From a virus, in IMG/VR virus record IMGVR_UViG_3300042563_000212, positions 1-21,929 of that record: 21,929 nt of DNA; one strand, given 5' to 3'. Shown here one piece after another: positions 1 through 15,662 of the stretch. Below the pieces are notes generated by a model. The model had not been told where the DNA came from. It ran no database searches and saw only the letters and a program-made list of their open reading frames with translations. Both the position numbers and the translations under genes were made by a program. Position 1 is the first letter of the stretch; every line of letters starts with the position of its first letter.

Positions 1-516
1 TACCCCTTGCATTGTAATCTCATTAGAGTTAATCTTAGTTACCTCTCCTGGATGATCCCATTGTCCTCTATCATCTTCTATAACAGAACCATCTCTACTA
101 ATACTCTTTGGTTTCCAATCAAGACCATTCTGATAGAATTGCATCTCTTTACCATTCTGTGCAGATGCTTTTGTCTTCTTAGCATATGGACCATTAGAAG
201 GAATTCCTTTTGTTCTAGCATATGTAAATCCTACAGAACCTGGAACTGTTCCACCATGTTCAAATTGTCCACCCCATGCAGGAGAATAGTTTCTACCTAT
301 TATATCATAACCTGCTCCAACATAATCTTCAGAATAAAATGCATCAGCATCATTATAGTTTTCCTGCATAGGACCGCCATCATCATATTTACTCAGCCAA
401 CCACCATCTTTCATAGTGTTGTCCTTTCCACATTCATGGCATACATACATATCTTTCTTACTGGAATCTTTTTTATCCCATGAATGTCCACATGTGCATT
501 TTACTTTGCTACTCAT
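1..516 (-). CDS. N-terminal part of a zinc-ribbon crAss-like virion protein (3' end outside window)
   Basis: An open minus-strand frame of 172 codons runs off the left edge, so only the N-terminus is present. It opens with a zinc-ribbon-like unit: Cys7 and Cys9, then Cys26 and Cys29 (CxC-x16-CxxC). A Gly/Asp/Tyr-rich stretch follows, with the segments GGWLSKYDDGG and GRNYSPAWGGQF. I recognise this N-terminus from large proteins in the late cluster of crAss-like phages, where it is thought to be virion-associated; the exact function is unknown to me. The ATG overlaps the TAA of the upstream endonuclease gene (TAATG), which fixes the start and suggests translational coupling. A plus-strand open frame over the same stretch is a shadow. 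The zinc-ribbon reading is firm, the virion role is inferred. Confidence 0.8.
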   Translation of the reverse strand, partial: MSSKVKCTCGHSWDKKDSSKKDMYVCHECGKDNTMKDGGWLSKYDDGGPMQENYNDADAFYSEDYVGAGYDIIGRNYSPAWGGQFEHGGTVPGSVGFTYARTKGIPSNGPYAKKTKASAQNGKEMQFYQNGLDWKPKSISRDGSVIEDDRGQWDHPGEVTKINSNEITMQGV

Positions 517-1223
517 TATTTATAAGATGTTTGAGATTTCCAAATAAATCCACCTGATGATTTTGTTTTACACTGTACACAATGTCTGATTGATGTAGGA
601 TGTAATCCTAATTCTTTAGCAGCTATAGTTGCACTTTGCCAATCTTTAATAAAAATTCCATCTAAAGTATATTGACTAATAGGTTTTGAATTAGCTAATA
701 TTTGTCCTTTATATAGTTTTTCTAAATGTTCTTTAGATGTCTTTTTACCTTTATGTGACTCACTGATTTTTGTTTTAGTTTCTTTAGAATGAATATATCC
801 TTTTCTAGAAGCTACTCTTTTTTCAATAGTTTTCTCAGATTGTTTTCTACCAATCATATATTCTGAATGCTTTTTACTCCATTCTTTACTTCTAATATAA
901 TTTATTAGTCCATCTCCACCATCTGTCATATTTGACAAACATCCTGTTTTTTTATTTATTCTTCCATATAAAGCAATGAACTCTATTTCTTTTTGTTTAA
1001 TAAACTCATAATCCTCAGATTCTAAAAGAATTTCTACTTCATATTCTGTTTTAGAAACTATATTATTCCAAATAGTTGACTCTTTTCTAGTTGTTTCAAA
1101 TGCTCTTCTATATTCTGATTCAAAACTATTATGATTACGTTTCTGTTTTGTACCTATTCCAATATAAAATGGCTCATTTTTATCAAGTCTAATATGTCTA
1201 TATAAATAATGTCTAGTTGTCAT
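516..1223 (-). CDS. GIY-YIG homing endonuclease with NUMOD3 and NUMOD1 DNA-binding modules
   Basis: This 235-aa protein looks like a free-standing homing endonuclease. Residues 5-100 form a GIY-YIG-type nuclease domain. The YIG half is clear at residues 20-22, the first GIY half is degenerate (Tyr-Leu-Tyr at 6-8), a Glu near 79-81 is the candidate catalytic acid, and the typical N-x-T-DGGDG segment is at 98-105. Residues 113-170 are Lys/Ser-rich repeated helices of NUMOD3 type, and residues 181-229 match NUMOD1, with a helix-turn-helix-like AAKELGLHPTSIRHC core. Such enzymes cut a phage genome lacking the gene and spread by recombination; they do not belong to the virion. The gene sits between two structural genes, 7 bases after one and overlapping the start of the next by one base, so both neighbours look intact. 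Confidence 0.9.
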   Translation of the reverse strand: MTTRHYLYRHIRLDKNEPFYIGIGTKQKRNHNSFESEYRRAFETTRKESTIWNNIVSKTEYEVEILLESEDYEFIKQKEIEFIALYGRINKKTGCLSNMTDGGDGLINYIRSKEWSKKHSEYMIGRKQSEKTIEKRVASRKGYIHSKETKTKISESHKGKKTSKEHLEKLYKGQILANSKPISQYTLDGIFIKDWQSATIAAKELGLHPTSIRHCVQCKTKSSGGFIWKSQTSYK

Positions 1224-1230
1224 ATTATAA

Positions 1231-2094
1231 TTATTTGTAAGATATCATAGCACTTCCTATAATAAACTGGCTAACTAAATGTGCATCTGCTCTATCATCA
1301 AGGATGTGTCTCACCTTTAAATCTTTAGCTCTCAATGGTTCTTTCTTAAAAGATCTCAAACCATAATCCATATTTGCTTGGTTTACAACCTTGTCTATAG
1401 AAAGAGACTCACAGGTTCTTACAAACAAAGGTATGGATTTATCTTTAACTAAAGACCAAAAAGTATTGTATTGATAAAAATTATCTGATTTAGTATAAGT
1501 AATCGTCTTAGAGTTTGTATTAAACTTTGGATAAGCTAGGTATGCACTTAGATTATGCATTGGTTTAGGAACCAGTTCAAGTATACCAGAACTCTGTTGT
1601 CCGTTATAAACCACAGCTTTGTTAAACCATCTGTCATTAGTTTCTATCTTATCACATTCATCTGAAACAAAGTCAGTGTCAATTGAATATTTATATGCTT
1701 TAGTGTAATCTTTTACGTTCTGTAAAATCTCATCATATGATTGATAACTAAAAGGATACTCTATTACATAAGGTTCTATGTTATCATAGAAATAATTATA
1801 TAATACAGGATTCTTTAAATGTGTCCATAGACATGCATTCCTTGATGGTGTATATGTAGCAGAAGCTATATCACCAGAAGATATATTACCTACAGGAAAT
1901 GATTTAACAGTATTACATTTACCAATAGAAGTTAGAATTATAATAGTAACATTATCATTTACATTATAAGATACTCCAGCAATAAGTTCATTCCTAGATA
2001 CATCAGTGGCAATAACATCACCATACTCGTTGGTGATGTTAAAGGGTCCACTTCTTAAAGAAGATTTTGTTAATTTTATAAATACTGTTTTCAT
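1231..2094 (-). CDS. Paralogous anchor domain fused to a tail-muzzle C-terminal domain
   Basis: The 287-aa protein has two parts. Residues 1-70 are a third copy of the N-terminal domain found in the two upstream genes (shared pattern: TVxIxLT, SGPF, ELIAG or LLAG, TSIGKC). Residues 86-287 resemble the C-terminal domain that normally ends the giant P22 gp10-like muzzle (stabilization) protein of crAss-like phages. Landmarks are NACLW at 86-90, EPYVIEYPF near 107, WFNKAVVYN in the middle and the run PLRAKDLKVRHIL near the end. In relatives I remember, this sequence follows directly on the HSYLPNW-type segment, which here ends the main body of the 1663-aa protein. I infer that it is the detached distal part of the tail muzzle. 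Its coding frame ends in TAA, 7 bases before the endonuclease gene. Confidence 0.75.
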   Translation of the reverse strand: MKTVFIKLTKSSLRSGPFNITNEYGDVIATDVSRNELIAGVSYNVNDNVTIIILTSIGKCNTVKSFPVGNISSGDIASATYTPSRNACLWTHLKNPVLYNYFYDNIEPYVIEYPFSYQSYDEILQNVKDYTKAYKYSIDTDFVSDECDKIETNDRWFNKAVVYNGQQSSGILELVPKPMHNLSAYLAYPKFNTNSKTITYTKSDNFYQYNTFWSLVKDKSIPLFVRTCESLSIDKVVNQANMDYGLRSFKKEPLRAKDLKVRHILDDRADAHLVSQFIIGSAMISYK

Positions 2095-2107
2095 TACTAA
2101 TTATGTA

Positions 2108-2941
2108 TTACGGACAATTAATTCCAGTTAATGACCCAACTGTATTTCCACTCAAAGTAAATATACTATATCCTGTAGTCACATATGTAGCTCCACCAGA
2201 ATAAGCTATTGTTAAAGCTGCATCTGTAAATATCTGCGTTCCTGTATAAAATGTTCCTCCTGATCCTCCTAATATATAATAATTTGCAAATGATGTACCA
2301 CAAAGAGCAAATTGATCATTAGACATTTTTAAAGGTATCAGATTTGGAGATACTGTAGTGGTAGTAGTTGTTGTAGGAAATACTGTACACACTGCATAAC
2401 TAGATATAGTACTTACTGCAAGATAGAAAGAATATCCGCCAACATATAAATAACCAGGCGATGTTAGTACAAACTGACTAGTTAAAGCAGGATTGCTAAA
2501 TAACTGAGTTCCATTTCCTAATACACCACTATAATATAATGTTATAGAAAAGAACGAAGCTGGTCCATCAGTACATGCATCATTACCTGTTGAATATCCA
2601 TAATATGTTACAGGACCACCGCTACCAAATGAATATTTTACAACTATAGAGTTTGATGCTCCTGTTGTTGTAGTGGTAGTTGTAGGTGCTACACTGGTAG
2701 TGGTTGTTGTTGTACCACCAGATATTGTTAAATCAATATAGTTAGTACAAGTACCAGTTGACATAATTCTAATGACAGTGCTTCCATCAGGAACAACATA
2801 AGATGTATAGCCTGCTAATAAAGCAGACTTTGTTATCCCTGTTGCAAACACTGTAAAAGTTATTCCATCAGGACTTGAATAAAGATCGTATGGACCTGAG
2901 TCAGTTCCAGCTATCGATAATGTTATTAGTACAGTTATCAT
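2108..2941 (-). CDS. Thr-linker fibre-like protein with two Cys-containing beta repeats
   Basis: This 277-aa protein is modular. Residues 1-75 are the shared N-terminal domain (SGPYDLYSSPDG, SALLAGYTSYVVP, CTNYIDLTI). A poly-Thr linker covers residues 77-93, a first beta-rich unit 96-186, a second Thr linker 190-196 and a second unit 199-277. The two units resemble each other: an early Cys, then a Gly-Thr-Gln-(Leu/Ile)-Phe motif followed by Ala-Leu-Thr (GTQLFSNPALT at 144-154 and GTQIFTDAALT at 234-244). There is no signal peptide or membrane segment. Position directly after the muzzle and this architecture suggest a tail-tip or fibre appendage, but no enzymatic or binding motif is visible. 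The function is inferred from context only. Confidence 0.75.
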   Translation of the reverse strand: MITVLITLSIAGTDSGPYDLYSSPDGITFTVFATGITKSALLAGYTSYVVPDGSTVIRIMSTGTCTNYIDLTISGGTTTTTTSVAPTTTTTTTGASNSIVVKYSFGSGGPVTYYGYSTGNDACTDGPASFFSITLYYSGVLGNGTQLFSNPALTSQFVLTSPGYLYVGGYSFYLAVSTISSYAVCTVFPTTTTTTTVSPNLIPLKMSNDQFALCGTSFANYYILGGSGGTFYTGTQIFTDAALTIAYSGGATYVTTGYSIFTLSGNTVGSLTGINCP

Positions 2942-2959
2942 TTTATTATATTTTAAATA

Positions 2960-3475
2960 TTATGATATACAAGCACCAGTTGGAGTTCCATCAACTGATC
3001 CGAATGTTACATTATAACTACCATTTTGAGTACAAATATTAAGTGTTCCAGTGAATGAAGTACTGTTATAATTACCACCACAATCATCCCATTCAACACC
3101 TGCTAATTCTCCACCACTATCTAATTGGAATCCTTGACATTCTATAGGACCAGCAGTTGTAGTAGTGGTTGTAGTTGAACTAGTTGATGTGCTAGTAGAT
3201 GTACTTGTTGAAGTACTTGTTGAACTAGAGCTACTAGTAGTAGTTGTTGTACCAGGTAATTGTATTGTTATATCAGTGAAATTAGTACATACACCAATTG
3301 ATTTCACTCTGATAATAGTAGTACCTGCAGGAACAACTGTAGAAGTGTAACCTGCAAGTAATGTAGATTTTGCAATTGATAATGCAAATGGTGTAACGTA
3401 ACCATCTACATTTGAAAACAAATCAAATGGTCCTGAATCAGTACCTGCGGTTGTTAATTGAATTAATACGGTCAT
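2960..3475 (-). CDS. Ser/Thr-linker fibre-like protein, short paralogue
   Basis: The 171-aa protein begins with the shared N-terminal domain (residues 1-72; TDSGPFDLFSNVDG, STLLAGYTSTVVP, CTNFTDITI), clearly a paralogue of the next gene downstream. Residues 76-106 are a pure Thr/Ser stretch including a Ser-Thr alternation. The C-terminal unit (108-171) has four cysteines (111, 130, 146, 169) in a pattern common in small beta domains of Bacteroidota phage appendages (WDDCGG then NICTQNG). It lies 47 bases after the muzzle stop and 18 bases before the next start, so it is probably co-translated with them. I infer a virion appendage; the domain itself has no function I can name. A 61-codon plus-strand frame across the linker is only the complement of the Thr codons. 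Confidence 0.75.
   Translation of the reverse strand: MTVLIQLTTAGTDSGPFDLFSNVDGYVTPFALSIAKSTLLAGYTSTVVPAGTTIIRVKSIGVCTNFTDITIQLPGTTTTTSSSSSTSTSTSTSTSTSTSSTTTTTTTAGPIECQGFQLDSGGELAGVEWDDCGGNYNSTSFTGTLNICTQNGSYNVTFGSVDGTPTGACIS
3158..3250 (-). repeat. Ser/Thr codon tract (31 residues)
   Basis: Residues 76-106 of the 171-aa protein are exclusively Thr and Ser, with a central Ser-Thr alternation flanked by pure Thr runs. It separates the shared N-terminal domain from the Cys-containing C-terminal domain and probably acts as an extended flexible linker. The codon sequence is a degenerate hexanucleotide repeat. Confidence 0.9.
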
Positions 3476-3522
3476 TTTATTAAGTTTTAAATTTTAATTT
3501 ATTATAATTATTCTATTGATGA

Positions 3523-6500
3523 TTAAAGTAAAAATGCTTCTCCACTTATATCACATTCAGGCACCAATGTTGTAGTGGTGGTAGTAGTAGTTGTTATTGG
3601 TGCTGATGTAGTGGTAGTAGTTGTAGTAGTAGTAGGTGTTTCATCTATTGCAATTCCAGATATTTCACAATTGAATAATGTTGTAGTTGATGTTGTTGTT
3701 GGTGTTAGCGTAGTGGTTGTGGTTGTTGTTGGTGTCTCATCAATTGCAATCCCAACTATTTCGCAATCAGGCCCAGCTGTAGTGGTTGTAGTTGTGGTTG
3801 TTGGTGATTCATCTATTGCAATTCCTGCAATCAAACAGTTATTTACAGTGGTGGTGGTGGTGGTTGTACCATTTGTCACTGCATCACCTACCATCTCACA
3901 TGGCTCAATTAAATAAGCAACTCCTGTTACTGCACATGGATCAATTAAATATGCTACACCAGTTACATTACAATATAATTCTTCAACGTTACCAACTAAG
4001 TAACAATGTGTAACTACACCAACTATAGCTTCAAGATCACTACAGCAATCATTAAGTCCTGAATAAAAGAAGTTATTTTCTGCAATATACCAGTTTGGAA
4101 TATAACTATGAAAAGAAATCCAACTATTAGTATTCATACTATATGTAAGAGTCCAAGACTTATTACAGAAATAATCAAGATCAGTTAAATAAACTTCTGT
4201 TCTGATTTCTTGTCCTGTTGAAAGAATAGTAGATAGATAGTATGTTCTAGTTATAGGATCATATTTGATATTTTTATTCTTAGGAATATAATCAAGCTTT
4301 GTTACAATAACTCTTTCGTATTTACTATCAAATGTTCCATGTAGTCCACATCCAGTAAAATGGTTATCTGTATCTACCTCTGGAAAATATTTTAGTATTT
4401 CAAAGGCTAGATGTTCGGTAAAAAACCGATTAAGTCCTGATCCTAATACAGAAAGATCCTTTGCTTGATTACCAGCAATAAGAAAAACTTGTCCTCTTTT
4501 AGCATCAATTGTTATTTGTCCCTGAGGAATCTTTAATAACATTTTGTTTTGAGAACCTACATAACCAAGATCTGTTTCAGCAAAGTCAATTGGAGGAGAT
4601 GACTTGAATAAAGTGTCATTGCCCATGTATGCTGCTTGTGGATTACTTGTATTGATTGTAAGCATTGTATTGTATAACAATGACTTGTTTTCAAATCTTG
4701 CTAATACAGCTTTGTTTTGTATACCATCTAATGATATTAAACCACCGTAGTTTTGTGGAAAATCAAAAGATGCTATAGATTTATATGTTAACCAATTATT
4801 TACTTTAACATCAGGATTGTCACTTGCTGTTTCTGAATATATAGCCCTAAATGGAAAATATGTAAAACATATCTCTGGTGACCAATCTGCTGGTAAATGA
4901 CTAAAGAAGTTTTCTTTATTTTGTTTAGAGAATGTTACATTATAATAATATGTATTGTCTTGTGCAATACTTACATAACTTTCTTGAACCCAATCATCAG
5001 GAATATTTGTACTTACATGAGGCCAGAAGTCTCCTTCTCTATTATTAAATGCTTGACGTAAGTCTACATTATAACTTGTTTCGCAATAGAAAGAAGGTAT
5101 GCCGTAAGCAAACTGATACATCTTACCATCGTAGTAAGTTCTACCTGGGGCTGTTGCTGGAGTTTGACTATTAGGACAATCTAAGTTATGGGCCTTAATA
5201 GATATAAAGTTTTTAAGAACTCCACTACCTCCTCCTCCAGTCCAAGTAACATCACTCAATACAGATCTAGAAGACCACCAATATTGTGGATAGGCAACAT
5301 TACCTATTTCATCGTAATATATATCAGAATCATCAGGAGCACCAACTCTATTATCAATAAAGAAAGGAAGTTTTGTTTTAAATGCAAATTGACCAATGAA
5401 TGTATCTCCACCAAATACTGTAGCATATACTGGTTCTGTTAAAGGTGTAATGTCTCTCTGGAATCCTGTATCAATAGTGGTGTATGAATATATCTGACCC
5501 CATTGATTAATAGCTATATTCTTTAATGATGCATAATAAGATATAACATTTATATTAACATGATTACCAGGATTATTACAATCTGCTCTTGGGTCAGAGT
5601 TTACAAATCTAGAATTATCAGTTACAAGATTATTTACAACTGTTGGGCTTTTATCAGGATATACAAGAGTTGGTGTTGGTGAATCAACAGTTACACTAGA
5701 TGTACTTACTACAGTGATTATGAATTGTGATGGACCAAGTATTTGCTGAGGATATGTAAATGAATCTACATACACACACTGTCCTGCATTTAAAGAAATT
5801 GTTGTTTCTCCTATTACAATATTTTCATATTTGAATATTTCAATATCACTTGATGAAGTGTTGCAAATTATATAATTTGTATAATATCTTATAAATCTTC
5901 CTACCTTATCAGTTGTTTTTAAATACACTGAAGACTCTCTCTGCCAATTGTTAATGTTATTATTATCACCAGCTGATTGTACACCAGGAATAAGATATTG
6001 AGCTATGTCAAGCATTCTTTGCTTAACTCCTAAATATCCAGTGTAATCATACGTATTATTTTCTATTGGACTGTTATAATCATAACTGGCAATAGAGTTA
6101 AATGACCAACTGTAATTACGTCTAGTTATACCATTAATATAAATAGTAAGATAAGATTGGTAAGCAGCAAATAAAGCTGAAGTGTTATATGGAGTGGTTA
6201 TTGCAGCAATAGTGTTAGAACTAGCAAACGCATCTAATTGTGCCTCTCTACTAAGAAGTCTATTTTGAGCATTCTTTCTAACCTGTACAAAATGTGCTCT
6301 ACCAGCACCATATATTACATTTTCTAATTTTAAAATATCACCTAAGAAAGGTTGTCCAAAAGAAGTTTCTGGAGAATTAAATACTTGTCTATATTGAGAA
6401 GCAGATGTATCAAATCCTTTTAAAGGTTCTGGATTACAAACTGTATCACTTATATATTCACTAACTGTTCCTGTTCCTGCTGTAATTAACGGTTTAGGAT

Positions 6501-8514
6501 TACTTAATGCACATGTAATAATTGTGTCTCCCACTAAGTATTTCGAAACTGTAACCACTGCATTAGTATCACAATTTCTATACTCAACTGTAAATAATCC
6601 ATCAACCGAAAGTGTTGTAACAGTTATTATATAATTTAAACATTTAGTTACAGCATCACCATCACCACCTATGATATATGCATTACTTTTATTTAATAAA
6701 AATGGATCAGCAGAAATATCATTATATGGATAGTTAGGATAGTAGTATTCTGTTCCTTCTCTTTCATATTTACCAACATTTCTAAGAATACCTTTGGCAA
6801 CAATAGATCTGTTTGTACTTCTGTCTCCTCTAACTATTTTAAATCCAGCAATTGCTGATTTTTGTTCTGTTGTAAGATTTGAATTATTTATTGCAGAAGT
6901 GATTTGAGTTAAGTCAAGTTTAACACCTATTGGAAATATAGCATCTTTTTGCATAACCATAGCTGATGCAGATGTAAACATTGCTGATTCAAATATAGGA
7001 GAAACTGCTACATCAGGAAACTTATGATGTCTAATAGGTGTATTAGCTAAATCTCCCCAAACTAATGTGTTACATGGATAAACATCTACTGATTCCCAAT
7101 AAGAGAATTCACCATATTGATAAGGTCCTTTGTAATCTGTTGATTGAGAATAATCAGGAGAAAATCCAGTTAATGATCCTGTATTATATATCTTCCAATA
7201 AGGACTTGTTCCTGTAAAAGAATCTGGTTCTCCAATAAAGTCAGCATTTGTAGGATAGACAGGAGTTAAATCATTAATTGTAGATTCTCTTCCAGGAATA
7301 TGAAATCCATCTGTCTGTTTACCATTAGCCAATAAGAAAACTATTTCAAATGCATAAACTTCATCTCTAAGGTAACCTCTAAGATTAGTTGCATTTAACT
7401 CATCTGCATAAGTTTCTGTATTAGGGATTCTATGTGTTTCCCATTGAAGAGTTATTTGATTAGCTATTTGTTGGTAGTTAACTCTATCAATAGATGTAAG
7501 ACCGTTCCATACTAATATATCTTGTACAGATGTTATATCTTCAGCTATTTCATAATAAGGAAACTTCTCAAATATATCATTTGTTGTAAGTCGTATCTGT
7601 GTAGTATTCTGACCAGTGTAAGTAATAGTTTCTTCTACCCTATCAATAAAATAAGTACCAACTAATTCTACAGAAGGAATGTTATTAATAGTTTTTATTA
7701 CAGCAAGGTTGTAGTATTGAAACTGACCAGACATATCTAAATTAGATATGGTGAGTACCACTGATTTACCAACTTCATAATTAAAGTTTGGTGTAGTGAT
7801 AGATGGATCAGCAATAGGGGTGGGGTTGGTTACTGAGTAATAAGATGTGTATCCATTACCAGCAACATCAGAATATTGTATTGCAAACTGTACGGTACCA
7901 GCTAAGTTACTTCCTCCTGTAACAATGTCTGTTACTTCTAATTGAGGAATTGTAAAGTTTGGTTGTATAGATAGTTGATTACAATCTAATTCATTAGTGT
8001 AAATAATATCACAACCGCTTGATAAATTAGATTTAGTATAAGGAATGTTATCTATATCTAAATATCTTCTAGGATTAAATCCATCAGTCCAATAAATCTC
8101 TGTAGCACAATTTGTTATTTTGTGTACAGCTTTGTGTATAGGATGATTAATATTAAAGTTAAGACAATCTGCATTAACTAATGTATGGTATACACAATCA
8201 TTATTATTCATATATCCAATTTCAGATCCACCTGTTTCAGGAGAAGCTAAAAAGAATATGTGTTTATTTTTTTCGTAAATAGAATGTTCACCAATTAATT
8301 GATAACTAACAGGAAAATCCAGACAATGTTCGTTGCCTGGTTCATTTTGATAATTTATTGTATTACCATCAAAGTTTTCTACAGAAGCATTAAGTGCATA
8401 GCTAAGAGAACCTTTCTCAATTTGATTAACGGTGCTATCTAAATTTAGGCCTGTTCTACCAAGACTATACTCTTGTTTAACATTGCCTTGATTAGTTGTT
8501 TCTTCTCCTGCCAT
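3523..8514 (-). CDS. Giant tail muzzle / P22 gp10-like stabilization protein with poly-Thr repeat tail
   Basis: At 1663 aa this is the largest protein in the window and occupies the place of the crAss-like tail 'muzzle', the distal tail component distantly related to P22 gp10. Recognisable pieces include the N-terminal SYALNASVENFDGN region, the middle IKTINNIPSVELVGTYFIDR stretch, and near residue 1468 the FHSYIPNWYIAENNFFYSGL segment. In relatives that segment is followed by the C-terminal domain, which here is in a separate gene (1231-2094). Instead, residues 1515-1663 are seven Cys-x-x-x-Gly-x-Ala units; the last four linkers are poly-Thr. The start overlaps the preceding P22 gp4-like gene by 23 bases. 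Assignment as a muzzle is confident; the exact fold of the terminal repeats is unknown. Confidence 0.85.
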   Translation of the reverse strand: MAGEETTNQGNVKQEYSLGRTGLNLDSTVNQIEKGSLSYALNASVENFDGNTINYQNEPGNEHCLDFPVSYQLIGEHSIYEKNKHIFFLASPETGGSEIGYMNNNDCVYHTLVNADCLNFNINHPIHKAVHKITNCATEIYWTDGFNPRRYLDIDNIPYTKSNLSSGCDIIYTNELDCNQLSIQPNFTIPQLEVTDIVTGGSNLAGTVQFAIQYSDVAGNGYTSYYSVTNPTPIADPSITTPNFNYEVGKSVVLTISNLDMSGQFQYYNLAVIKTINNIPSVELVGTYFIDRVEETITYTGQNTTQIRLTTNDIFEKFPYYEIAEDITSVQDILVWNGLTSIDRVNYQQIANQITLQWETHRIPNTETYADELNATNLRGYLRDEVYAFEIVFLLANGKQTDGFHIPGRESTINDLTPVYPTNADFIGEPDSFTGTSPYWKIYNTGSLTGFSPDYSQSTDYKGPYQYGEFSYWESVDVYPCNTLVWGDLANTPIRHHKFPDVAVSPIFESAMFTSASAMVMQKDAIFPIGVKLDLTQITSAINNSNLTTEQKSAIAGFKIVRGDRSTNRSIVAKGILRNVGKYEREGTEYYYPNYPYNDISADPFLLNKSNAYIIGGDGDAVTKCLNYIITVTTLSVDGLFTVEYRNCDTNAVVTVSKYLVGDTIITCALSNPKPLITAGTGTVSEYISDTVCNPEPLKGFDTSASQYRQVFNSPETSFGQPFLGDILKLENVIYGAGRAHFVQVRKNAQNRLLSREAQLDAFASSNTIAAITTPYNTSALFAAYQSYLTIYINGITRRNYSWSFNSIASYDYNSPIENNTYDYTGYLGVKQRMLDIAQYLIPGVQSAGDNNNINNWQRESSVYLKTTDKVGRFIRYYTNYIICNTSSSDIEIFKYENIVIGETTISLNAGQCVYVDSFTYPQQILGPSQFIITVVSTSSVTVDSPTPTLVYPDKSPTVVNNLVTDNSRFVNSDPRADCNNPGNHVNINVISYYASLKNIAINQWGQIYSYTTIDTGFQRDITPLTEPVYATVFGGDTFIGQFAFKTKLPFFIDNRVGAPDDSDIYYDEIGNVAYPQYWWSSRSVLSDVTWTGGGGSGVLKNFISIKAHNLDCPNSQTPATAPGRTYYDGKMYQFAYGIPSFYCETSYNVDLRQAFNNREGDFWPHVSTNIPDDWVQESYVSIAQDNTYYYNVTFSKQNKENFFSHLPADWSPEICFTYFPFRAIYSETASDNPDVKVNNWLTYKSIASFDFPQNYGGLISLDGIQNKAVLARFENKSLLYNTMLTINTSNPQAAYMGNDTLFKSSPPIDFAETDLGYVGSQNKMLLKIPQGQITIDAKRGQVFLIAGNQAKDLSVLGSGLNRFFTEHLAFEILKYFPEVDTDNHFTGCGLHGTFDSKYERVIVTKLDYIPKNKNIKYDPITRTYYLSTILSTGQEIRTEVYLTDLDYFCNKSWTLTYSMNTNSWISFHSYIPNWYIAENNFFYSGLNDCCSDLEAIVGVVTHCYLVGNVEELYCNVTGVAYLIDPCAVTGVAYLIEPCEMVGDAVTNGTTTTTTTVNNCLIAGIAIDESPTTTTTTTTAGPDCEIVGIAIDETPTTTTTTTLTPTTTSTTTLFNCEISGIAIDETPTTTTTTTTTSAPITTTTTTTTTLVPECDISGEAFLL
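3526..3972 (-). repeat. Seven Cys-x-x-x-Gly-x-Ala units with poly-Thr linkers (muzzle C-terminus)
   Basis: These 149 codons encode seven units starting CNVTGVA, CAVTGVA, CEMVGDA, CLIAGIA, CEIVGIA, CEISGIA and CDISGEA. Units 4-6 share the ending IDE(S/T)P. From unit 3 onward the linkers contain runs of 7 to 9 threonines, two of them doubled by a short break (LTP, SAPI). Thr codons are a mixture of ACT, ACA and ACC, so the DNA is an interrupted GTN-type trinucleotide repeat on the plus strand. Copy number could change by slippage or recombination. Confidence 0.9.
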
Positions 8515-9430
8515 ATCTGTTAGTTCTATTTGGTAGTTCGTACATGTTGAACCTATTCAGATCATTTTTTATTCTTCTCTGCTTAGTCCAAGCATCTTGT
8601 TTCTTGATTTCAATATCAGCCATGATAAATGCTTCATCATGTAATTGCTTATAATAAAGCATCTTCTGCTGTACTTGATTAAATGTTTCATCATTAATTT
8701 GATTAGACAATGTTTCAAATACTTTATATTTAATAAATGCTTCAAGAAATTCTCTTATACGATAATTGTCAGGAATCAATTGATTACCACCATTATCATA
8801 TTCTGTTGCATAAAATAATAAATGTACAACACCATTTCTGAAGTTAGTTACAAACTTGTTGTCTCTAATATCAAATGAGTCTATACCACTAGATCCTGGT
8901 GTAAAGTTTTTTGTATATGATGCATCACAGTTAGTGCTAGCTGATATATTACCTGGTTGCAATAAGTATTCTTGTCTGTAAGATCTAGCTACTTCTTGAT
9001 TAGTTTTGTATACAGCTTGTATTAATAATGGCATACATTCTCCACCACAACCAGGACTAGCACACTCAGGGTTAGCACAATCAACACCACCTACAGTGAG
9101 GGGTGCAATTTGAATTGTTGTTTGTGTAGCAGCTTGTGAATAAAATGAGTTAGCTGATTGATATGGTAGTTGAGGAATCTCAGAACACATCCAAGCTTCT
9201 CTTACAGCATAAAAGTTATCTGGAAGTCTAGCTACAAAATCTTCAACATGCAATATCTCAGCAGTGATTGAGTAAGTGGTTCTTCCTAACTTCCTAAGAC
9301 ACTTATCTAAATAAGTAGGAAATAATAGGTCATCAACTGCACCTGTATCAAAGTAAGACTTTAATTCTTCTTTAACAGTAGCATAGATAGGCTCAGGTGA
9401 TACGAAATTATATTTATAGTAGTATGACAT
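8492..9430 (-). CDS. P22 gp4-like tail accessory/stabilization protein
   Basis: This 312-aa protein matches my memory of the crAss-like protein annotated as P22 gp4-like (tail accessory factor), a ring component that joins the portal side to the tail. Characteristic segments are the N-terminal YYYKYNFVSPEPI, then KEELKSYFDTGAVDD at 21-35, LPDNFYAVREAW at 69-80, SFDIRDNKFVTNFRNGVVHL in the middle, and LIPDNYRIREFLEAFIKYK late. The C-terminus is a basic, Arg/Asn-rich helix (QRRIKNDLNRF onward). Cys118, 123, 128 and 132 form a tight CX4CX4CX3C cluster that might bind metal. It starts 6 bases after the IHF-like gene and overlaps the muzzle start by 23 bases, consistent with equimolar assembly of the tail. 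Confidence 0.85.
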   Translation of the reverse strand: MSYYYKYNFVSPEPIYATVKEELKSYFDTGAVDDLLFPTYLDKCLRKLGRTTYSITAEILHVEDFVARLPDNFYAVREAWMCSEIPQLPYQSANSFYSQAATQTTIQIAPLTVGGVDCANPECASPGCGGECMPLLIQAVYKTNQEVARSYRQEYLLQPGNISASTNCDASYTKNFTPGSSGIDSFDIRDNKFVTNFRNGVVHLLFYATEYDNGGNQLIPDNYRIREFLEAFIKYKVFETLSNQINDETFNQVQQKMLYYKQLHDEAFIMADIEIKKQDAWTKQRRIKNDLNRFNMYELPNRTNRYGRRRNN

Positions 9431-9435
9431 CTAAT

Positions 9436-9915
9436 TTATTTTTTCCACTCTTTATAGAGGTATTGATAATCATTATTTATTTTGAGGTAGTGCGACAGTA
9501 ATCTTGATGTTGTTCTTGAAGGTTTAAAGTACCATAGCTCTATATGTTTAAATCTAGCTGTTTCTTTAAACCACATCCATCCAAAAAAAAATCCTTCTGT
9601 ATGGTAGTTAAAATTATATATAACTTTAGATTTCTCTTTAGTTTTTTGCCAGTCAATTGGTAAGTTTATGTACTCTTTACCATCAATAACTTTAATCTTT
9701 TTTCTTTTCTTTTTGTTGATAGAGAATTCACCAAATCCAAATGGAAGTTTTGCTTTCTCTCCAGTTTCTAATATATAGTCTTTAAATGATTCATTAAAAG
9801 AATAAACTATAATTCTCCATTCATCAAAAGATAATTTAGTTGAAGGGTATTTCTTAGAGAAATTGGTGTAGTTTTCTTTACTTGCACTTCTCCAATCAAC
9901 AGAAACTCTAGACAT
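9436..9915 (-). CDS. IHF/HU-fold-like basic structural protein
   Basis: The 159-aa protein is Lys-rich. Residues 31-105 follow the HU/IHF layout: an amphipathic helix (EWRIIVYSFNESFKDYIL), a tight LPFGFGEFSI strand equivalent to the GFGxF motif of HU, then a long basic beta-arm-like stretch (INKKKRKKIKVIDGKEYINL). Such IHF-like genes are known in the crAss-like late cluster next to the P22 gp4-like gene. Whether they bind DNA or act as virion ring proteins I cannot tell from sequence; the late-gene position favours a structural role. The C-terminal third is aromatic (FFFGWMWF near 109-116) and unlike host HU. It begins 2 bases after the preceding gene's stop. Confidence 0.65.
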   Translation of the reverse strand: MSRVSVDWRSASKENYTNFSKKYPSTKLSFDEWRIIVYSFNESFKDYILETGEKAKLPFGFGEFSINKKKRKKIKVIDGKEYINLPIDWQKTKEKSKVIYNFNYHTEGFFFGWMWFKETARFKHIELWYFKPSRTTSRLLSHYLKINNDYQYLYKEWKK

Positions 9916-9917
9916 TA

Positions 9918-10646
9918 TTAGTTGGTTGGTTTTGTATTAGGGGCTTGTCCATCAACACCATCTTCTGTCATATCAGTTTTAATTCTGAAATATGTAGCTA
10001 ATAGTTTTTGTGACACTAATTCCAAGACTTGTTTTTCTAAGTATCCTGGAAGAGAGAACGGTTTATCTAATGGGTTCATACACCATTCTTCATTAGTTGG
10101 TTGACAATTACCACAACCAGCATCAGGGTACATTAATTGATTAGGAACATCTTCTTCAAAACAAGCTGCAAGTCTAATAGCTTGTAGTAATGGATTACTA
10201 ATATATAAATAGTCATTCAAAATCCAATAGTAACTTTCTTTTTTTATAATAGGAAGTTTAATTAGATTAGTGTATCTATTAATAGTAATTTCTTTAAGTC
10301 TTGTTCCTGTACCTCCCATTGCATTTATAGAATAAACACCTTGTATTAGATACTGGTAGTTTCCTTCAGAGATGCGTGGAATTTTATATTTAGTTCTAGC
10401 AACAGTACAAGGATCTTGATAATCACAACATTCAGAAATAGGAACCTCCATCATTTCTAAACAAGGAATGGTAGTAAATAATGTACTTGTAGCCCAAAGC
10501 TTTCTAAGATTAGTTTCTCTCTTAATTAGCATGATGCTATTATTCCTCACCTCAGATGCAATTACTCGATCTGTGATAAGACTATCTGTTGATAGCATCT
10601 TGTGCATTGAACGCACATCTGAAACTAATTTTCTTAATGTTGCCAT
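9918..10646 (-). CDS. crAss-like tail ring / connector protein
   Basis: This 242-aa protein belongs to a conserved family of the crAss-like tail module, which I recall as a ring-type component of the tail barrel. Typical segments are the N-terminal helix with SEVRNNSIMLIKRETNLRKLW, then TTIPCLEMMEVPISECCDY at about 58-76, KIPRISEGNYQYLIQGVYS at 88-106 and a late PFSLPGYLEKQVLELVSQKL helix. Cysteines are frequent (62, 73, 74, 80, 162, 178, 181, 189) and could form disulfides or a metal site. It lies 4 bases after the phosphoesterase gene and 2 bases before the IHF-like gene, so it is translated from the same message. The ring assignment is from family memory and position; no catalytic motif is present. 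Confidence 0.7.
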   Translation of the reverse strand: MATLRKLVSDVRSMHKMLSTDSLITDRVIASEVRNNSIMLIKRETNLRKLWATSTLFTTIPCLEMMEVPISECCDYQDPCTVARTKYKIPRISEGNYQYLIQGVYSINAMGGTGTRLKEITINRYTNLIKLPIIKKESYYWILNDYLYISNPLLQAIRLAACFEEDVPNQLMYPDAGCGNCQPTNEEWCMNPLDKPFSLPGYLEKQVLELVSQKLLATYFRIKTDMTEDGVDGQAPNTKPTN

Positions 10647-12035: not shown

Positions 12036-12353
12036 TTACAATATGGTACTAGTGGTTGTTGTAGTTGGTACACATCCACTTACCAGTTGACAGAAGTATT
12101 GTTTTAATACACTGCTGTTTTCAATGGTTTGAATAATCTGTGCTACAAATTGATCAGAACATATTTTTTCATCTATCTTCTGTAATGCATCAGTTAAACA
12201 AGTGTTGGTTTGAATACCTGTACATGAAAGATTTGGTCCATCATAATTAACACGAGAACTTTCTATAATTTCAAAAGGTATTGGTGCACAACCTGGAGGA
12301 TAAATTATTTTTATCACAGGTTCGTAACATGGCATTCCTGGTAAACAGCTCAT
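12036..12353 (-). CDS. Small Cys-rich protein with a poly-Thr C-terminal tail
   Basis: This 105-aa protein starts MSCLPGMPCYEP, an N-terminus resembling the Cys-rich start of the fibre protein just upstream, and contains NLSCTGIQTNTCLTDALQKI near 42-61. It ends CVPTTTTTSTIL, a short Thr tail like those on other proteins of this phage. Eight cysteines are present in all. It begins 6 bases after the collar-domain fibre gene and is the last gene before a double terminator. I recall similar small proteins next to crAss-like fibre genes but know no function; a virion accessory or fibre partner is the best guess. Confidence 0.7.
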   Translation of the reverse strand: MSCLPGMPCYEPVIKIIYPPGCAPIPFEIIESSRVNYDGPNLSCTGIQTNTCLTDALQKIDEKICSDQFVAQIIQTIENSSVLKQYFCQLVSGCVPTTTTTSTIL

Positions 12354-14465: not shown

Positions 14466-15662
14466 TTAAGGAATCTGAGTTGAAGTTGTAGTGGTAGTTG
14501 ATGGACTAGCAGTAGAACTAGTAGTAGTAGTGCTAATACAAACGTTGTTAGATACTAAATCTCCTAATGCAGCTTCTAATATATTTTCAATTGTACCACC
14601 AACCATGCTAGTACTTGGAATAGCAATAATCACTGTAGCATCTTCATAAATATAATCACCCCATTGGTAAGCAGATTTATCATACTCATTAAACTTAATG
14701 TAATAAGTATTATAAGTAGTTCCAGCAGAAACATAAGACTCAAAGTTCTCATTGTATCCAGCCATTCTGTATAAATGCTTTAAGTAACCAGCTTGGTAGC
14801 TATAGAAATTCTTTTCTAGTTGAGCTATTTCAGCAGATTGTCCAGTTGGGTAAGAAGCACGTTGTGCAACTACAGCCTCAGCAACAATGTTACAATTGTC
14901 AGCAACAATAAAGTCAGCAGTGGTAGCAGGACCTGAATAAACAAATGTTCTGAAATACATTCTGTCATATTCAAATGGGAACGCAGCAACATCACATGGT
15001 TGACCATATGCAGTTAATGGCTTACCAGTAATAACTAAGATTGCATTTGCATCATTACCTACTCTTTGGAAAGTGTAGAAAGTATTGAATGAAATGTTGT
15101 CTGGGTTAATACCAGGAGCTTGTGCTGTAAATTTAGCAATAGCAGCATCAATAAATGCAGGTACATCTACAGTATCACATGGGTCACCACCACAGTCACA
15201 GCAAGGAGCTTGAACAGTAATAGAACGAGTGAAACCATTGAAGTATAATGTATCAATGTAAGAAGAATGAGCACGTAATGTAAAAGTTACGATATCACCA
15301 CACTTAACATTGAAGTTACCAACTTGTGTAATTTGATTAGCAGCAGTTGGACATCCTATAACTTTGTACCATTCAGTTACATTAGAACCAGCAGGTCTAA
15401 CTGTTTGTGCATTACCTGTAAGAACTACACTTCCACCTGAAATCTTATCAGATCTTTTAGATCCTTGAAGGTAAGTGTTTTGTCTTCCTTGAGCAACATA
15501 GAAGTAAGGAAAGTCATTAATTGTACCAGATGTTACTGGTGCATAAAGATTGTTGAAAATACCTACTTGACCAGGAGTAAGATTTTGTGTTGAACCAGAG
15601 CTAGGAAGAGAATTCTGTCCTACTGGCACCACGAATAACGTGGTTAATGAAAAATCAGCCAT
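14466..15662 (-). CDS. Conserved crAss-like virion protein with Cys cluster and Thr/Ser tail
   Basis: This 398-aa protein begins MADFSLTTLFVVPVGQNSLP, a start I recognise from an abundant crAss-like structural protein; FYVAQGRQNTYLQGSKRSDK (residues 54-73) is another conserved stretch. Candidate roles are capsid auxiliary (decoration) or head-associated protein, which I cannot decide from sequence. Cys154, 155, 157 and 162 form a compact CCxCx4C cluster. The final 24 residues (375-398) are a Thr/Ser tail, STTTTSSTASPSTTTTTSTQ in its core, resembling the linkers of the tail-end proteins. The mRNA ends in a strong terminator right after the gene, fitting a highly expressed virion component. Confidence 0.75.
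   Translation of the reverse strand: MADFSLTTLFVVPVGQNSLPSSGSTQNLTPGQVGIFNNLYAPVTSGTINDFPYFYVAQGRQNTYLQGSKRSDKISGGSVVLTGNAQTVRPAGSNVTEWYKVIGCPTAANQITQVGNFNVKCGDIVTFTLRAHSSYIDTLYFNGFTRSITVQAPCCDCGGDPCDTVDVPAFIDAAIAKFTAQAPGINPDNISFNTFYTFQRVGNDANAILVITGKPLTAYGQPCDVAAFPFEYDRMYFRTFVYSGPATTADFIVADNCNIVAEAVVAQRASYPTGQSAEIAQLEKNFYSYQAGYLKHLYRMAGYNENFESYVSAGTTYNTYYIKFNEYDKSAYQWGDYIYEDATVIIAIPSTSMVGGTIENILEAALGDLVSNNVCISTTTTSSTASPSTTTTTSTQIP

Follow-up and report, generated by a model that had tools for sequence, protein, structure and literature searches.

A crassvirus lineage in which the tail muzzle is probably a two-chain protein carrying exchangeable domains at its new ends

In the phages that are most abundant in the human gut, and in their environmental relatives, DNA and cargo proteins are retained by a gate called the muzzle. 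In crAss001 it is formed by gp44 (PDB 7qok), a single chain that assembles as a hexamer and comprises a ring-joining domain and a propeller of seven blades, with large insertions in loops of the propeller and of IG2 (Bayfield et al. 2023, PMC10172136). Variation in muzzle length was reported there to arise through loop insertions, and no chain breaks were described (PMC10172136). Here we examine the muzzle encoded by IMG/VR virus record IMGVR_UViG_3300042563_000212, a stretch of 21,929 bases that we call the window. This protein is homologous to gp44, and its gene likewise adjoins that of ring protein 1, but it is encoded as two chains instead of one.

Divided coding regions are known from enzymes of T4-like phages, for example NrdA-a/b of Aeh1, the gp43A/B polymerase of phage 25 and the T4 topoisomerase gp39/60, and reassembly has been demonstrated for NrdA and gp43A/B (PMC2988022). 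The insertions in these enzyme genes are homing endonucleases or, in gene 43 of 44RR, untranslated sequence (PMC2988022). The split muzzle resembles these genes in pieces in that a coding region is divided in two while one function is probably kept; two adjacent conserved genes jointly correspond to one gene of the relatives. Unlike the T4-like examples, it belongs to a virion machine, its break is clade-wide and holds no endonuclease, and domains have been added at both new ends. Our search, which covered the open literature and few of the subscription journals, found no reported split muzzle, and this is no proof of absence.

The larger chain is the product of an open reading frame (ORF) of 1663 aa (3523-8514, minus strand in the ORF list). 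Its residues 1-1486 (4057..8514, minus strand) make up the muzzle body, a crassvirus muzzle up to a broken hairpin. The body is a member of the muzzle family PF25731 crAss_MUZ (E value 1.6e-35, 123 bits against a cut-off of 27), matches phrog_37948 (E 6.7e-104), aligns at its N-terminus with positions 12-423 of phrog_15100, and shares 31.8% identity over 82% with the muzzle of Leptolyngbya phage Lbo-JY46. An earlier reading of the DNA letters, hereafter the original prediction, held that the body ceases to be a recognizable muzzle near residue 1500, and this is borne out: the last recognizable muzzle motif, SFHSYIPNWYIAENNFFYSG, ends at residue 1486, with FFYSG beginning at residue 1482. A phmmer search of PDB sequences with the body alone gave no true relative.

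The missing C-terminal domain had been placed at residues 86-287 of a downstream gene, and that is where we find it. The gene is an ORF of 287 aa (1231-2094, minus strand), and residues 86-285 of its product match positions 1587-1781 of the 1783 in phrog_15100 (E 1.9e-11); this family is common to both chains, the body taking its N-terminal positions and the 287-aa protein the far C-terminal ones. The domain (residues 86-287 plus stop, 1231..1839, minus strand) keeps the invariant residues of fused muzzles, and the small chain matches the Lbo-JY46 coding sequence (CDS) in tblastn (E 5e-17). A hidden Markov model (HMM) of the C-terminal domain matches only the 287-aa ORF in the window, and the body contains no second copy. 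The two halves are separated, as originally described, by three TAA stops and two complete minus-strand genes. The four ORFs of the muzzle region (1663, 171, 277 and 287 aa) all end in TAA and follow one another with gaps of 47, 18 and 13 nt. Because homology and gene order fit a crassvirus muzzle but body and C-terminal domain do not share a polypeptide, we regard the locus as a split variant rather than a canonical one-chain muzzle. The small chain has no Pfam family match at the cut-off, and annotation would call it hypothetical. A match to the Pfam family FtsH_ext fell below the cut-off and a phmmer match to DltD among PDB sequences had an E value of 0.0075; both were judged to be due to chance, and no true PDB relative of the small chain was seen. 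An hhalign comparison of alignments A5 and A6 is partly circular, since A5 contains some fused rows, and was not used as independent evidence.

Elsewhere, the muzzle is indeed one polypeptide. Both parts lie side by side in a single CDS (1654 aa) of Lbo-JY46, as located by tblastn, and fused muzzles occur in Flavobacterium phage Fpv1 (1783 aa), Cellulophaga phage phi17:2 (2289 aa), csAssE-Sib and, separately, a faecal contig, as well as in the environmental relatives L092, L094 and L104, which are 46-51% identical to the small-chain domain. At the position of the break, the fused proteins have a loop of only a few residues, for example FYSG-RRDLGS-VWTH. The one-chain muzzles of Lbo-JY46, L088, L092, L094 and L104 contain the same parts in the same order as the window pair, but in a single CDS, with neither the N-terminal domain of the small chain nor a Thr-rich tail. 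The deposited record of Lbo-JY46 (L083, PP438436.1) gives the cyanobacterium Leptolyngbya as host and annotates only hypothetical proteins in this region. The muzzle there is a crassvirus one and a capsid protein is of crassvirus type; for that order, the recorded host is unusual. Close kin of the Lbo-JY46 domain were found neither in the IMG/VR scan nor in bacterial genomes.

Each chain has additional sequence at its new end. The large chain continues beyond the body as a C-terminal extension (residues 1487-1663 plus stop, 3523..4056, minus strand), which has no counterpart in fused relatives and is hypervariable and Thr-rich, with repeated CxxxGxA units. The extension comprises 177 residues in the window, where the Thr runs use mixed ACN codons, and ranges from 29 to 858 aa in split relatives, with up to 53% Thr plus Ser. 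In the basal split members L250 and L252 it is only about 30 residues long and lacks Thr runs, and the break is therefore independent of the Thr-rich tail. By eye, residues about 655-720 of the body resemble the Cys-containing modules of the C-terminal tails, which suggests that in-frame insertions of modules may exist too.

The small chain is capped at its new N-terminus by a domain of about 70 aa (residues 1-70, 1885..2094, minus strand; AlphaFold2 (AF2) predicted local distance difference test score (pLDDT) about 85-94), here named GPF after its motif. An HMM built solely from standalone GPF ORFs, without any small chain, matches the small chains of split loci (E 3.5e-8 in the window, 4e-14 at best). 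The domain starts every small chain detected; all 10 split genomes searched contain it, and 15 basal fused genomes do not (with the rejoined L248, discussed below, left aside). It also stands at the start of each of the two ORFs between the muzzle halves of the window, and of further ORFs close to tail genes in relatives. This N-terminal domain, common to both intervening products and the 287-aa protein, had been missed in the original prediction. Foldseek returned weak, non-significant matches of the cap to Ig-like folds, including the type 9 secretion translocon small subunit 8gl6_D (probability 0.75, E 0.87).

The intervening genes are built from the same kinds of parts. The 171-aa product (2960..3475, minus strand) consists of GPF (residues 1-71), a Thr/Ser linker and one module (about 105-171), whereas the 277-aa product (2108..2941, minus strand) has GPF (residues 2-73), Thr linkers and two modules; both match the GPF HMM, of which each is itself a row (E 2.7e-37 and 1.4e-34, respectively). 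Searches of Pfam and PHROGs matched neither product to any family, known tail-fibre families included, leaving only a modular Thr-linked architecture. The module of the 171-aa protein clusters with 38 modules from body tails and 23 from other Thr-rich ORFs in relatives, and its best direct match is the body tail of L011 (E 6.8e-9, 38% identity). Intervening proteins and body tails therefore draw on one pool of modules. The proposal that appendage genes are placed in the split describes the window well, but in the lineage such genes are optional: 54 of 67 non-redundant relatives keep the break with no gene in it, and the other 13 have 0.25-2.9 kb between the halves, with at most three complete ORFs (in L141). 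What the break holds in relatives is GPF-family genes or nothing, with no homing endonuclease or mobile element. Its constant features are not the intervening genes but the GPF domain on the small chain and the C-terminal extension on the large one.

Across a large uncultured lineage, the muzzle is constantly broken in this way. Searching IMG/VR with the small chain identified 403 stretches encoding a relative, and in the closest 80, which come from many metagenomes, the muzzle is split in every case. Nine records of 110-117 kb each contain a single body, a single C-terminal domain and no fused muzzle. Among close pairs, the median ratio of nonsynonymous to synonymous substitution rates (dN/dS) is 0.081 for the small-chain domain, 0.085 for the body and 0.082 for ring protein 1, as against 0.206 for the GPF/linker region. 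Both halves are thus under equally strong constraint, and neither is decaying. Fused and split forms, whose comparison had been proposed as a check, both exist and sort on the tree. Judged from these trees, the break goes back to the ancestor of a large clade, which itself sits among muzzles of one chain.

Additional cuts have occurred in the same protein. Nine contigs (L067, L068, L071, L076 and L263-L267) encode three chains, the body being cut also at the preceding propeller loop, after the KLDYIP...FYIE stretch, and the third ORF encoding the penultimate segment (YFCNKSW...FFYSG) with its tail. These contigs fall in two separate places of the tree, and the second break therefore has at least two origins. 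In phi17:2 the loop of the second break carries a long in-frame insertion. In one three-chain form, L263 (2146-7197), chain 1 ends in a tail that, by eye, resembles leucine-rich repeats and not Thr-linked modules. Another irregularity is seen on a contig represented by both L010 and L114, in which the body is broken (L010 ORFs 4402-8193 and 8434-9984) and about 80 profile columns are missing; its near relative L011 is intact, and the break looks like a frameshift or an assembly fault, not a third break type.

The opposite change may also have taken place. Contig IMGVR_UViG_3300027736_000055 (L248) encodes one muzzle of 1645 aa, with the loop FYYSG-KVGIG-MWRH and no GPF cap, and a 335-aa GPF gene elsewhere. 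In a first tree of 50 rows the split forms made one clade, with one break, and adding L248 and its kin turned this into a break plus an apparent rejoining. L248 nests within the split clade with an ultrafast bootstrap of 98 and a Shimodaira-Hasegawa approximate likelihood-ratio test (SH-aLRT) value of 96 on 643 columns, and with SH-aLRT 100 at three nested nodes on 2360 columns from muzzle, ring and neighbour proteins. A grouping of all split forms that leaves L248 out is rejected by the larger set in the approximately unbiased (AU) test (p 0.0002), for a group that was named after a tree had been seen. An early AU test (p 0.736) lacked the close relatives L250-L254 and is not to be used. The simplest history on these trees would have the ancestral muzzle break once and, in the line of L248, rejoin once with loss of both tail and cap.

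Structure prediction indicates where the cut falls. For an AF2 model of the C-terminal 688 residues of the fused L094, the top Foldseek match is the crAss001 muzzle 7qok_A (E 2e-12), followed by podovirus portal-tail (nozzle) chains (9k09, 9nwi, 9efk, 8jov and 8vbx) and then by many beta-propellers. Nozzles of the P22 gp10 and T7 gp12 type, which are known as single chains, are like the muzzle in placing a propeller nozzle at the tail end. DSSP places the break loop of the L094 model between the strands SKFYSG and SVWTHN, which form a propeller hairpin. The small chain itself, modelled from its own alignment, has a mean pLDDT of 78 and again finds 7qok_A as its top match (probability 0.92). 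The propeller would thus take its strands as far as the cut from the body and be closed by the small chain. Among PDB sequences, a profile of five muzzles matches 7qok (E 1.9e-10), with the C-terminal stretch of the alignment weak and cut off, and a profile of the fused C-terminal halves yielded only chance matches and did not reach 7qok.

Based upon these findings, we consider it quite probable that this crassvirus lineage builds its muzzle from two chains and uses the new ends to mount exchangeable domains. The 1663-aa chain would provide the N-terminal part, the inserted domains and most of the beta-propeller, and the 287-aa chain the last propeller strand or strands and the C-terminal part. 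Pairing across the cut hairpin in the virion would preserve the hexameric muzzle. That the chains co-fold into a normal muzzle in this way is likely, because all features of the single-chain domain are kept and because L248 indicates that one-chain and two-chain versions are interchangeable; the strong conservation of both halves lends it indirect support. The new C-terminus of chain 1 would carry a variable set of Thr-linked modules and the new N-terminus of chain 2 the GPF cap, with standalone GPF proteins, sometimes encoded in the gap, serving as appendages. More speculatively, the common GPF domain might hold these standalone proteins near the muzzle. With modules in separate genes at a gene boundary, they could be swapped or lengthened without breaking the frame of the propeller. 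We hold only tentatively that the cut ends display exchangeable modules that contact surfaces and that GPF proteins are recruited through the cap. Equally tentative, at somewhat less than an even chance, is the more general picture of the muzzle as a breakable scaffold, in which propeller loops are cut and free ends mount exchangeable modules, giving two-chain and three-chain forms and at least once a rejoined one, with standalone GPF proteins recruited via the small-chain domain. If this is true, the two- and three-chain gates show where the muzzle tolerates cuts and how parts contacting surfaces are gained and exchanged, and the lineage provides a natural set of one-, two- and three-chain forms for testing how a propeller nozzle assembles.

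Several points weigh against this interpretation. The presence of both products in one complex, or in the virion, is something we infer from the genes. The hairpin stretch of the L094 model is of low confidence (pLDDT 39-53), and the Foldseek match of the small chain, which concerns the C-terminal domain alone, has an E value of only 0.11. The GPF domain has no match in the phage collection or among PDB sequences, and neither it nor the modules correspond to a Pfam or PHROGs family. Moreover, the rejoined form is a single contig, and the smaller data set of 643 columns does not reject its exclusion from the split forms (AU p 0.255). This last result would also fit a history without rejoining, in which L248 is ancestrally one-chain and the break arose several times at one loop. 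Loop breaks do recur in the family, as the second break attests, but several breaks at one position would be needed, each with a homologous GPF cap and along nested branches around L248, and we regard this history as unlikely. It is quite improbable that the small chain no longer belongs to the muzzle, with the body working without it and the 287-aa protein serving in a new role such as a GPF-family fibre adaptor. Its acquisition of a domain common to fibre-like proteins would agree with such a move; however, its C-terminal domain retains the invariant residues of fused muzzles under constraint equal to that on the body, the nine genomes offer no other copy, and the fusion of the same domain to the body again in L248 would be hard to explain after relocation.

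The remaining alternatives concern how the break came about, or whether it exists at the protein level. A single polypeptide could still be made through ribosomal frameshifting or bypass, a self-splicing intron or an intein, and the ORFs are indeed a few nucleotides apart or overlapping in most relatives. Among relatives without intervening ORFs, however, where the body stop lies -64 to +29 nt from the small-chain start, the frame offset between body and small chain is 0, 1 and 2 in 11, 19 and 24 cases, respectively, and fusion by frameshifting is therefore excluded. The relatives with complete ORFs between the halves also speak against one polypeptide, as do the small chain's own Met and homologous N-terminal domain in every relative. 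An Rfam scan of the window matched no family, introns included, and gaps of 1-20 nt are too small for an intron. A/T-rich sequence precedes the small-chain starts, as it does those of the other genes. We consider a one-polypeptide product highly improbable. Also very unlikely is that a mobile homing endonuclease made the genes in pieces, as in nrdA of Aeh1, although a long-lost endonuclease might have been the original cause. A free-standing GIY-YIG/NUMOD homing endonuclease gene does lie 7 nt downstream of the small-chain gene (516-1223, minus strand), before the next structural gene. Yet it stands outside the break and is specific to the window, for in almost every split relative examined no gene lies between the small-chain gene and the one that is next here, and the basal split members show no trace of an endonuclease in the break, which makes one unnecessary. 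Sequencing or assembly error, or a decaying gene, has nothing in its favour beyond the metagenomic origin of the data, and with the same break in all of the nearest contigs and dN/dS of about 0.08 its probability is practically negligible, in agreement with the original view of sequencing error as a poor explanation.

The surroundings of the split muzzle are those of a crassvirus. The structural block of the window runs on the minus strand from portal through Crass_capsid, CrAss_Ring_2 and CrAss_Ring_1 to the muzzle, with family matches to P22_portal, Crass_capsid, CrAss_Ring_2 and CrAss_Ring_1. Tail ring protein 1 (8492..9430, minus strand; PF24228 CrAss_Ring_1, E 8.3e-11) fixes the crassvirus order ring 2, ring 1, muzzle. 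Two more minus-strand ORFs of the structural block, at 12036-12353 (105 aa) and 14466-15662 (398 aa), likewise finish in short Thr-rich tails, and in this lineage tails of this kind might be a general end-tag for genes of the tail region.

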